This document shows, one piece after another, positions 30,281 through 34,399 of a DNA stretch of 64,000 nucleotides. The stretch is from Carnobacterium pleistocenium FTR1 (lineage in GTDB: Bacteria > Bacillota > Bacilli > Lactobacillales > Carnobacteriaceae). The position numbers and the translations under genes were made by a program. The notes under the pieces are model-generated. The model made no database searches, was not told the DNA's origin, and saw only the letters and a program-made list of their open reading frames with translations. The DNA lies in assembly GCF_000744285.1 (NCBI RefSeq), contig NZ_JQLQ01000002.1, forward strand, positions 1,612,001 to 1,676,000, in the 5' to 3' direction. Within the stretch, counting starts at the first letter, position 1, and each line of letters begins with the position of its first letter.

Positions 30281-32272
30281 TTATTCCGCTGTAACATTGG
30301 TATTTTCTTCTATAACTTCTCCATCTCGTTCAATACGGTAGGATCCTGTATCGCCTTCTTGGAGAACAAATGGAATAACCGTTTCAAAATCTTCTGTGAT
30401 TGTAAATTTTTGAAATTCATTCTCTAAAGTATGCTCGTTATCTTTAATGTAAATGACAACTTCATTTGGTATAGGATTCGATTCTTGAGAACTGCTTTCA
30501 GATTCTTTTGCAGACTCAGACTCTGCCTTTTCTGATTCATTCGCTTTTGGTTCAACATAAGGAATAGTTACCGTTTTTGAAAAAGTTTGTTCTGGTTCTT
30601 CTCCCAATGAAATGACGACTGAGAACGAAGCACCACTAGACAATAATTCTCCTGCTGCAGGGTCTTGCGTAATGACCTGGCCTTCTGAAACTTCTCCAGA
30701 GTAATCTTCAGTTATAGTAACTGTTAGCCCCTGTTCATTCGCATAATCTTGGACACCTTTTTCAGAATAGCCAGCTAAATCCTTCATTTCGATTTTTGCT
30801 TCACCAGTACTTACTGTTAACGTAACTGTTGTTTCACTCGGAACAACCTCTTCATCTTCATCTATACTTTGTTCAATAATTGACCCCTCTGAAAAAGTAT
30901 CGCTATTCTCGTCTACCCGTTCGGTAATAAACCCTTGTTCTATAAGTTCCGCTCGAACTTCTTCATAGGGTTCACCTGTATAATCTTTAAATGAAACAGT
31001 CTCTTTCCCAGAACTGATATATAAATTCACATTGGTTTCTTCTTTAACACTTGAATTGATTTCTGGATCAGTTTTTGTAACCAACCCTTCCTCAACATCT
31101 TCGCTTGTCTCTACAGTCGTTGTATTGACATATAAATTAGCTGCTAAAAGTGCGTCTTCAGCCTCTTCTTCTGACATTCCTGCAACATCTGGTATTAACA
31201 CATCTTTAGGTGCTGTAAGGGCGAATGCAACCATGCCTCCTGTGATAATAAGTAAGAGTAATAATAATCCAAGCCACATTATTTTCCGCTTTTTTTTCTT
31301 CTTTGGCTCTACTTCTTTGTCTATTTCTTTATTTTTAAGGTCAAGCTCTTTTTCTTTGACAATCGCGGTTGGGGCTATAGGTACGATTGGTTCCAATATC
31401 TTTGTCTTCTCCATTAAACTAGCTGGAGTAAATTTTGACTCTTTGATTCTTTGAGGTGATAAAGAAGTCTCTAAATCAGAAGCCATTTCTTGTACTGAAC
31501 GATACCTATCAATCGTCTCTTTTGCGGTTGCTTTAAGAACAACATTTTCTAAAGACTGTGGAATACGATGATCAAAATCTTTCACTGATGGAAGAGACTC
31601 TTGAAAATGCTTTAAAGCAATCGATACCGCAGACTCGCCCTCAAAAGGAACATTACCGGTTAGCAATTCATATAGAATAATACCTAATGAATAGATATCT
31701 GATTGATTAGTGGCCATGCCTCCCCTTGCTTGTTCTGGAGAAAGGTAATGAACCGATCCTAATAAAGAATTTGTTTGAGTAATAGATGTTTGCGATAACG
31801 CTACTGCAATTCCAAAATCAGTTATTTTAACTACACCAGATTCATCAATCAAAACATTTTGGGGTTTTAAATCTCTATGGATAATGCGATTTTTATGAGC
31901 TTCTCCAACAGCCGCCAGAATTTGTCTCATAATATCGAGAACTTTTTGATAGGGTATGGGGAAATTACTATGAATATAATGCTTTAGATCCATTCCTTTA
32001 ATGTACTCCATAACAATGTATTGGTTGTTTTCTTCTTCCCCAACGTCATATACACTTACAATATTAGGATGAATCAGTTCTGTAGCGGCTAACGCTTCCC
32101 TTTTGAACCGTCGGATGGTGTTTTGATCATCTCTAAAGTCAAAACGCAATACTTTAACTGCAACATCTCTTTCTAAGATTAGATCTCTTGCAAGGTAAAC
32201 ATTTGCCATTCCGCCAGAACCGACCGATCCAATTATTTTATAACGGCCATTCAGTTTCTTCCCCTTTTCCAT
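30281..32272 (-). CDS. prkC: PASTA-domain Ser/Thr protein kinase PrkC/Stk
   Basis: Membrane kinase that senses cell-wall material and phosphorylates division, wall and translation proteins. 663 residues: cytosolic kinase domain (about 11-270) with GSGGMANVYLA, catalytic HRDLKPQN at 132-139, TDFGIA and activation-loop threonines near 160-170; a basic juxtamembrane stretch; one transmembrane helix (about 331-352); three PASTA repeats (about 355-422, 423-490, 491-557); a serine/glutamate-rich linker; and a C-terminal domain. Catalytic residues look complete. ATG at 32272 with GGGGGG 9 nt upstream; it overlaps the end of prpC by 35 nt. The partner phosphatase gene is truncated (see prpC). Confidence 0.96.
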   Translation of the reverse strand: MEKGKKLNGRYKIIGSVGSGGMANVYLARDLILERDVAVKVLRFDFRDDQNTIRRFKREALAATELIHPNIVSVYDVGEEENNQYIVMEYIKGMDLKHYIHSNFPIPYQKVLDIMRQILAAVGEAHKNRIIHRDLKPQNVLIDESGVVKITDFGIAVALSQTSITQTNSLLGSVHYLSPEQARGGMATNQSDIYSLGIILYELLTGNVPFEGESAVSIALKHFQESLPSVKDFDHRIPQSLENVVLKATAKETIDRYRSVQEMASDLETSLSPQRIKESKFTPASLMEKTKILEPIVPIAPTAIVKEKELDLKNKEIDKEVEPKKKKKRKIMWLGLLLLLLIITGGMVAFALTAPKDVLIPDVAGMSEEEAEDALLAANLYVNTTTVETSEDVEEGLVTKTDPEINSSVKEETNVNLYISSGKETVSFKDYTGEPYEEVRAELIEQGFITERVDENSDTFSEGSIIEQSIDEDEEVVPSETTVTLTVSTGEAKIEMKDLAGYSEKGVQDYANEQGLTVTITEDYSGEVSEGQVITQDPAAGELLSSGASFSVVISLGEEPEQTFSKTVTIPYVEPKANESEKAESESAKESESSSQESNPIPNEVVIYIKDNEHTLENEFQKFTITEDFETVIPFVLQEGDTGSYRIERDGEVIEENTNVTAE

Positions 32273-32873
32273 GATGGTTATCCCCCCCTTCTAATTCTGT
32301 CTGTACTAACATAATTGTTATATTATCATATCCTCCACGTTCATTAGCCATTGCTATCAATGTTTCAACTTTTTCTTTAGCTGATTCTTGAGTACATAAA
32401 ACACTTTTTATTTCTTGATCTTTAACCATATTTGTTAAACCATCTGAACAAAGCAGTATCTGATCATTAGGTAAAGCTGGTAGAATCGTTACATCAATAT
32501 CGATTTCTTCTGTTACACCCAAAGAGCGAGTCAGTACGTTTTTTCTAGGATGATTTTCAGCATCTTCTGAAGAAATTTCACCGCTTTTTACTAGTTCATT
32601 TACTAAAGAATGGTCTTCGGTCACTTGGCTTAAGCGTCCGCCAGTATAGTGGTACCCTCTGCTATCGCCAATATTTGCAATAACAAATTCTTTATTAACC
32701 AGTGCTGTTGCAACGAGTGTCGTTCCCATTCCTTCTAAGTCAGAAAATTGACGTGATTTCTCCAAAATATGTTTATTTTCAAGACTAATACAAGTCAACA
32801 TCCATTGCGTAATTTGTTCAGCATCCTGTACATCGGACTCTTCCCATGAATGCCCTAAATGTGAGACCGCCAT
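32238..32873 (-). pseudogene. prpC: PP2C-type Ser/Thr phosphatase PrpC/Stp, 5'-truncated
   Basis: The remaining 211 codons read as the body of the PrpC/Stp phosphatase: SEMAVSHLGHSWEES at the start, MGTTLVATAL near 50, ANIGDSRGY near 68, LLCSDGLTNMV near 142 and GGYDNITIMLV near 185. Family members are about 245-250 residues and begin with an RxxNxD motif and then DGMGGHxxGDVAS, whose aspartate binds both catalytic metals. Here the frame is readable only from GGDVASEMA (about 32898), after an in-frame TGA. The 150 nt up to rsmB hold a terminator and no trace of the lost part. No good ribosome site precedes the ATG at 32873. An active enzyme is very unlikely; a folded fragment cannot be excluded. 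Confidence 0.8.
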
Positions 32874-32965
32874 TTCACTAGCAACATCTCCACCTCATGC
32901 CTTTCGATAATTCATTCTAAATTAAATTCAAATTGATTACTATTGCTTTATAAGTACTTATAAAA

Positions 32966-32997
32966 ATAAAAAAACCGGGAAAAGGGTTCTTCCCGTT
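32966..32997 (-). terminator. Terminator after rsmB
   Basis: CGGGAA (32976-32981) and TTCCCG (32990-32995), 8-nt loop, followed on the minus strand by GTTTTTTT. In related genomes rsmB and prpC usually adjoin without a terminator, so its presence here goes with the prpC deletion. Confidence 0.75.
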
Positions 32998-33022
32998 ATA
33001 TTTGTATTAGCTTTTAAGTTGG

Positions 33023-34399
33023 TTAATTTTGTACTTTTCTTAGACAACTAATAAAGAAGCCATCTGTTCCAAAATCATGCGGATAGAGTTGAAGAGAGCC
33101 ATCTTTCAAACATCCAGATAATGATTCTTCAACTTTTATAGAGGCCTGTTCAAAGTTTTTATGCGTAGCTAGAAATTTTTCAACCGTTTCTTTATTTTCT
33201 TCATTTGTTATTGTACATGTACTATAAACTAAAAGTCCACCTACTTTTAATTTTGGAGCTACTTGTTCCAAAATTCCAAGCTGTACTTTCTGTAAGTTTA
33301 ATAAATCTTTTTCCTTTTTAGTGTACTTAATATCCGGCTTACGTCTCATTAAACCTAAACCAGAACAAGGAGCATCCACTAATATACGATCAAACTGTTC
33401 ATTTGGAAACACTTGATCGACATTTCTGGCATCCAATTTCATCGCTACTACAACATCTTCTATGTGCATTCTTTTAGCATTTTCAGTAATCAACGCTACT
33501 TTGTGTTCATGAAGATCAAGTGCAGTTACTTTTCCACCTGCTTCAGCAGATAAGTAAGAAGCAATATGCGTTGTTTTCCCACCAGGAGCAGCACAAGCAT
33601 CCAACACTTGATGATGCGGCTCTAACTGTAAAATAGGTGCAACTAATTGAGAAGATTCATCTTGAATCGTTAATTGTCCAGATTGAAATAAAGGAGAGGA
33701 AGCAAAATGTCCACCATCACTGATGATACCAACTGAAGAAATAGCACTTTTACGAACACCAAAGCCTTCTTCTTCCATGGCTTCTATGGCTTCTTCGACC
33801 GTCAAAAATTTCTCGTTTACTCGTGCACTTGAATGACTAGGATGAAGCAAAGATTCACCCATTTTTTGAGTTTCTTCTAATCCAATATCCGCAATAAATC
33901 TTTCGACTAGCCATGTTGGCATGCTCAACTCAATACTTAATCGTTCAATGGGATCTTCAATCATCTCGATGCTAGGAAATCCTTTACGATCAGCGTTTCT
34001 TAATACCCCATTAATGAATTTACTGATTCCGATATGACCTTTTTTCTTAGCCACTTCAACAGCCTCAAACAAAATCGCATGTACCGGTATTTTATCTAAA
34101 TAAATCATTTGATAGATTGATAATCTCAATAGATTTCGGACCCATACATCAATTTTTTTAGCTTCACTTAAAAACGGAGCTAAATAAAAATCCAACGTTA
34201 ATTTCCGTTGCAAAACACCATATACCAATTCAGTTAACAAGCGTGCATCCGCTGCGCTTAACTTATTTTTTTGAATCGCTTCATTAATCAATAAATTCGA
34301 ATACGAACCTGTCTTATCCGTCCGTTCTAAAATTGACATTGCTAAATAACGACTTGTTTTTTTCACATTTCTTTTTTGCAGATTCTCATTAGTTTCCAT
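33023..34399 (-). CDS. rsmB: 16S rRNA (cytosine967-C5)-methyltransferase RsmB
   Basis: Methylates C967 of 16S rRNA. 458 residues: N-terminal NusB-like helical domain (about 12-145), then the Rossmann methyltransferase with CAAPGGKTTHIASYL near 265, DLHEHKV near 290, VDAPCSGLGLMRRKPDIKY near 340 and the catalytic cysteine region LVYSTCTIT near 393. ATG at 34399; it overlaps the end of fmt by 11 nt, showing coupled translation. Confidence 0.96.
   Translation of the reverse strand: METNENLQKRNVKKTSRYLAMSILERTDKTGSYSNLLINEAIQKNKLSAADARLLTELVYGVLQRKLTLDFYLAPFLSEAKKIDVWVRNLLRLSIYQMIYLDKIPVHAILFEAVEVAKKKGHIGISKFINGVLRNADRKGFPSIEMIEDPIERLSIELSMPTWLVERFIADIGLEETQKMGESLLHPSHSSARVNEKFLTVEEAIEAMEEEGFGVRKSAISSVGIISDGGHFASSPLFQSGQLTIQDESSQLVAPILQLEPHHQVLDACAAPGGKTTHIASYLSAEAGGKVTALDLHEHKVALITENAKRMHIEDVVVAMKLDARNVDQVFPNEQFDRILVDAPCSGLGLMRRKPDIKYTKKEKDLLNLQKVQLGILEQVAPKLKVGGLLVYSTCTITNEENKETVEKFLATHKNFEQASIKVEESLSGCLKDGSLQLYPHDFGTDGFFISCLRKVQN

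Follow-up and report, generated by a model that had tools for sequence, protein, structure and literature searches.

In Gram-positive bacteria, the balance of cell-wall synthesis depends in part on pairs of PASTA-domain Ser/Thr kinases and PP2C phosphatases. In Staphylococcus aureus, an early stop in the phosphatase gene stp1 leads to lower glycopeptide susceptibility; excerpts of the study in question give the teicoplanin-selected Q12stop single mutant a teicoplanin MIC of 2 ug/ml, compared with 1 ug/ml for its parent (PMC3124529). In Listeria monocytogenes, excerpts of two papers describe gpsB suppressors with prpC truncations 1-44, 1-73, and 1-109, as well as a prpC deletion obtained together with prkA*; prpC deletions were confined there to backgrounds with a weakened kinase or lacking gpsB, and MurA built up (PMC8959180, PMC7286690). 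In Enterococcus faecalis, ireP mutations emerge under beta-lactams, according to excerpts of two further papers (PMC11633384, PMC13377840). The phosphatase losses that we found in print are of laboratory origin, in mutants that were constructed or selected there. Our searches of open-licence papers retrieved nothing on a Carnobacterium PrpC phosphatase, with Carnobacterium unmentioned among the looser matches listed, and nothing direct on natural loss of the phosphatase. The need for the eraser beyond a few model species could be tested in a genome where the kinase and its known substrate are intact but the phosphatase is missing.

The window analysed here, a stretch of 64,000 nucleotides from Carnobacterium pleistocenium FTR1, contains a single phosphatase frame, which lies on the minus strand at positions 32238-32873 and adjoins the gene of a PASTA kinase. 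The best reading of this locus is a natural, recent loss of the Stp1/IreP phosphatase, and we consider it very likely that prpC was inactivated in this lineage, probably recently, by a deletion of 135 nt between two short repeat copies. The features on which this reading draws are as follows, in window coordinates:

30281-32272, minus strand: prkC, intact, encoding a PASTA-domain Ser/Thr kinase of 663 aa; it shares 35 nt with the frame of prpC
32238-32873, minus strand: what remains of prpC, 211 aa when counted from the first ATG in frame (32873), matching positions 45-232 of the 232 in the Stp1/IreP model
32885-32887, minus strand: out-of-frame ATG, 3 nt past the retained GAGGTG, opening a 10-codon frame that ends in TAG (read from the sequence)
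32889-32896, minus strand: deletion join, GAGGTGGA, where the prpC Shine-Dalgarno site is fused to codons 42-44 (R-G-G)
32895-32897, minus strand: in-frame TGA at the deletion join (read from the sequence)
about 32945-32953, minus strand: place of the 54-nt hairpin that congeners carry and that is missing here (junction alignment)
32976-32995, minus strand: hairpin resembling a terminator, downstream of rsmB and with a T run behind it
33023-34399, minus strand: presumptive rsmB, intact upstream neighbour

Read along the minus strand, the gene order is fmt, rsmB, prpC remnant, prkC, rsgA, and rpe. The names fmt, rsmB, rsgA, and rpe are presumptive ones given from the proteins, while prpC and prkC were assigned to their families by NCBIfam. 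The place of the prpC remnant, after rsmB and adjoining the PASTA kinase gene, is that of the Stp1/IreP family. Against NF033484, the NCBIfam model of the Stp1/IreP/PrpC family of PP2C phosphatases, the remnant scores 227.2 bits and does not reach the cut-off of 230, compared with 301.9 bits for the intact protein of the congener G001, whose nearest solved structure is Stp1 (2pk0, 1.4e-65). The original prediction, made from the letters alone, held that prpC is recognisable only from GGDVASEMA onwards, after an in-frame TGA, and the frame listing and the sequence bear this out: the open frame can be traced 5' no further than GGDVASEMA, and the TGA (32897-32895) stands just before it. The motifs of the C-terminal part of the protein (GDSR, EDHSL, CSDGL, and DNIT) are all kept, whereas RxxNxD and DGMGGH are both absent, deleted in comparison with congeners.

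An alignment of the rsmB-prpC junction with five congeners (G001-G005) shows the window to be without exactly 135 nt that all five possess, and the junction is thus not one common to its close relatives: each of the five has a full-length prpC with both RxxNxD and DGMGGH. What is missing runs from the Shine-Dalgarno site through the spacer and codons 1-41 and into codon 42, with one copy of the repeat retained. The loss of the N-terminus with its two motifs had been called correctly, at a somewhat larger extent of roughly 45 codons. The window tracks the congeners up to ...GAAAGGCAT and then skips to GAGGTGGAGATGTTGC. The missing stretch begins at the Shine-Dalgarno site, which reads GAGGTGGAACA before the ATG in G005 and has close variants in the other four congeners, and it ends at similar letters in codons 42-44, which read CATCGAGGTGGAGATG in G002. 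Within the congeners, 4-6 nt are exactly shared between the two sites, and the spacing of the repeat sites, measured as 135 nt in G001, has one identical value across all five. Repeat letters at both sites, together with the sequence at the join, make up the pattern left by a deletion between short direct repeats. One repeat copy would be the prpC Shine-Dalgarno site and the other would lie in codons 42-44; the deletion itself is established by comparison, and slippage or short-homology recombination would be its route.

An error of assembly, or a sub-population of the culture, with most cells carrying an intact prpC, would produce the same picture, and the species is represented here by one genome, in an assembly where three small contigs accompany the 2.63-Mb contig. 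The join is nevertheless internal to that 2.63-Mb contig, both of its flanks align well with the congeners, and it bears the signature of a genuine short-repeat deletion; common base-level sequencing errors would not be expected to produce a clean loss of 135 nt. We consider this explanation quite unlikely.

The original prediction had also described the 150 nt up to rsmB as holding a terminator and unrelated AT-rich sequence. A terminator-like hairpin is indeed present at 32995-32976, but the AT-rich part does have a counterpart towards its end: roughly the final 50 nt, ending GAATTATCGAAAGGCATGAGGTGGA, align with the congeners' prpC leader, including its Shine-Dalgarno site, and are what is left of the old prpC leader. 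A further difference, beyond those first noticed, lies in the same interval between rsmB and prpC, which in all five congeners carries an inverted repeat of 54 nt, each arm 24 nt long, once per genome (positions 2887-2940 of locus L068, with the matching place in L069-L072). Its stem is perfect in four congeners and has one mismatch in G004, the predicted energies run from -36 to -41 kcal/mol, and changes in the arms are paired. No T run follows this hairpin in the stretches printed or aligned, Rfam returned no match at gathering score in three congener loci that carry it, and Rfam on the hairpin-less window region 32000-33400 gave one weak match, far under its gathering score. Across 18 genomes the arm pattern occurs twice (that is, as one hairpin) in each congener, and once with three mismatches in G007 and in G018; the idea of a dispersed or mobile repeat was rejected, given one hairpin per congener genome among these 18. 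The hairpin is absent from the window's genome at up to three mismatches per arm. As G001, by dS the closest of the congeners, has the hairpin, its loss in the window's lineage is the simpler reading of these sequences.

Returning to the phosphatase, we aligned the N-termini of 18 loci, a subset of the 29 relatives' loci obtained by the search with the remnant. The residues M1, G10, R13, N16, D18, N25, D36, G37, G39, G40, and H41 are invariant among them, with M38 present in 17 of 18, and all 11 invariant residues are deleted in the window's prpC. We take D18 and D36 to be metal ligands, and the aspartate of DGMGGH to be the metal-bridging one. With the start codon, codons 1-41, RxxNxD, and DGMGGH gone, the product, if made, should neither hold the metal pair nor dephosphorylate, as judged from the family. 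Little of it is to be expected in any case, since the retained Shine-Dalgarno site now faces the out-of-frame ATG, which may capture initiation; the in-frame ATG at 32873 sits 17 nt from the retained GAGGTG, and translation of the remnant would be weak.

It is conceivable that ATG 32873 still yields the truncated protein and that this protein is retained in a non-catalytic capacity, for instance to bind PrkC or phosphorylated substrates, or that the frame is kept for the coupling of its translation to that of prkC. The remnant frame is unbroken over 211 codons, retains the four C-terminal motifs, and overlaps prkC by 35 nt (32238-32272). The end of prpC and the start of prkC overlap in the same way in G001, which suggests coupled translation of the two genes. 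Compared with G001 over 210 codons, the remnant has a dN of 0.046 and a dS of 0.644, for a dN/dS of 0.071, while seven further pairs, the window being a member of two, gave 0.064-0.100. No change is seen in the remnant at any of the 55 columns whose residue is shared by 95% or more of the other rows, a result of low power in that 22 of the 29 other rows likewise have none. By an estimate of free drift, a count of at most 22 non-synonymous differences has a P of 0.04 after an own branch that was unconstrained for 5% of its length and of 0.002 at 10%; this is a rough Poisson calculation in which about 480 non-synonymous sites and a pre-deletion ratio of 0.08 were both set by hand. The undecayed remnant and the drift estimate imply that the deletion happened recently, or else that the frame remains in use, and the lack of decay fits a recent deletion and a kept function equally well. 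The changes polarised to the remnant's own branch (five synonymous and six non-synonymous, against six and four for G001) are too few to separate the two. The distance of ATG 32873 from GAGGTG, however, is far for normal initiation, with the out-of-frame ATG closer, and a recent deletion accounts for the undecayed frame just as well; a retained non-catalytic or coupling role is therefore, in our view, very unlikely.

We would like to note that the kinase, in turn, appears sound, as had been proposed. PrkC passes NF033483, which is NCBIfam's model of PASTA kinases of the Stk1 family, scoring 666 bits where the cut-off is 450 and matching positions 2-563 of 563, and its HRDLKPQN and DFG motifs and activation loop are the same as in eight other genomes. 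Where those eight agree, the window's PrkC differs solely by V299I and K322E, both outside the kinase domain; G123 is private to the window and falls within the kinase domain, but the other genomes vary among themselves at this column. With prkC full length and no kinase-domain change at positions where the eight others agree, a compensating change in the kinase was rejected. Separately, residue 15 of the G001 PrkC, just ahead of the glycine-rich loop, is R, and is G in the eight other genomes compared.

The partner proteins were compared in six genomes each. IreB/ReoM has no private changes, and all six sequences agree completely at the N-terminus, counted from the first Met; GpsB has three private changes, DivIVA one, one MurA-like protein three, and the other MurA-like protein 17, of which 11 are in or before the first open-frame residues, upstream of or at the likely start. 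The compensating changes known from Listeria were sought in PrkC, IreB/ReoM, and GpsB, and none were seen. A third EPSP-synthase-family (AroA-like) protein of the window's genome (G000:C2:253168-254355) has 52 private differences, compared with 1-11 in four congeners, and has no match in G001; from these sequences, it is possibly a replaced gene. That the lineage has rewired its wall phospho-signalling, with the eraser lost, the kinase, IreB/ReoM, and GpsB intact, Listeria-type compensation absent, and the remnant serving as a dead binding partner or as a coupler of prkC translation, strikes us as unlikely.

A backup PP2C or SpoIIE phosphatase elsewhere in the genome was likewise considered and rejected. 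The genome-wide search for another PP2C gene that accompanied the original prediction as a proposed check was carried out for PP2C and SpoIIE phosphatases with PF13672, PF00481, and PF07228, and each of these three Pfam families matches the prpC remnant only. The proposal that PrkC acts here with no cognate eraser is hence supported as the best reading, given a full-length kinase, no second PP2C or SpoIIE phosphatase matched, and full-length phosphatases in the congeners. The strain probably has an on-switch, the kinase, without the matching off-switch. PrkC and its substrates should then be more phosphorylated, with turnover, or phosphatases other than those identified here, as the only counterweight.

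To place the loss among other bacteria, we note that the search with the remnant as query gave one match in each of 58 relatives out of 58, and that a full-length PrpC query found a match in 394 of the 395 genomes of the order. Among the matches listed for the full-length query, which are the better-scoring part, this genome alone is without the N-terminus. An N-terminal model of 64 positions also matches 394 of 395 genomes, with this genome the weakest at 1.0e-7 and the next weakest at 5.3e-16, and such a collapsed match is found in this genome alone among the 395. In G208 (C2:252500-257500), prpC is split into two frames near an A run, with prkC present; this could be either another candidate for such a loss or an error in sequencing. 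The 1.3-Mb genome G273, of the same order, has no match to PrpC or PrkC and seems to have lost the whole pair. The presence of prkC was checked in G208, G273, the window's genome, and G001. The survey thus yields a rough rate, in which 2 of 395 genomes showed a prpC break next to a prkC that is present (this one, and G208 by an uncertain frameshift; C-terminal breaks outside the matches listed would escape) and the pair is absent in one.

Compared with the Stp1/IreP/PrpC family (NF033484; Stp1, 2pk0), the remnant is alike in its gene place beside a PASTA kinase and in covering positions 45-232 of 232, and differs in being without positions 1-44, where RxxNxD and DGMGGH lie, and in scoring below the family cut-off. 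The S. aureus stp1 Q12stop likewise removes the phosphatase early, but in the excerpts of that study it is a drug-selected nonsense mutation and not a deletion (PMC3124529). In E. faecalis the cognate phosphatase of the PASTA kinase is likewise mutated, but under drug selection in the laboratory, and by a missense change in the excerpts of one of the two papers, PMC13377840 (PMC11633384, PMC13377840). By analogy with other genera only, drug tolerance in this strain might be altered. In L. monocytogenes, PrpC is likewise lost from strains in which a PASTA kinase and ReoM are present, but the changes described in the excerpts of those papers are mostly premature stops, as opposed to a deleted N-terminus, and they are paired with gpsB deletion or a weakened kinase, while GpsB and PrkC look intact here (PMC8959180, PMC7286690). 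If the need for a weakened kinase or an absent gpsB that these excerpts describe extended to Carnobacterium, it would count against a simple loss in this strain, where neither change was found. Nevertheless, a recent deletion remains our preferred reading, and the loss observed here is a natural instance of an already known kind of phosphatase loss.
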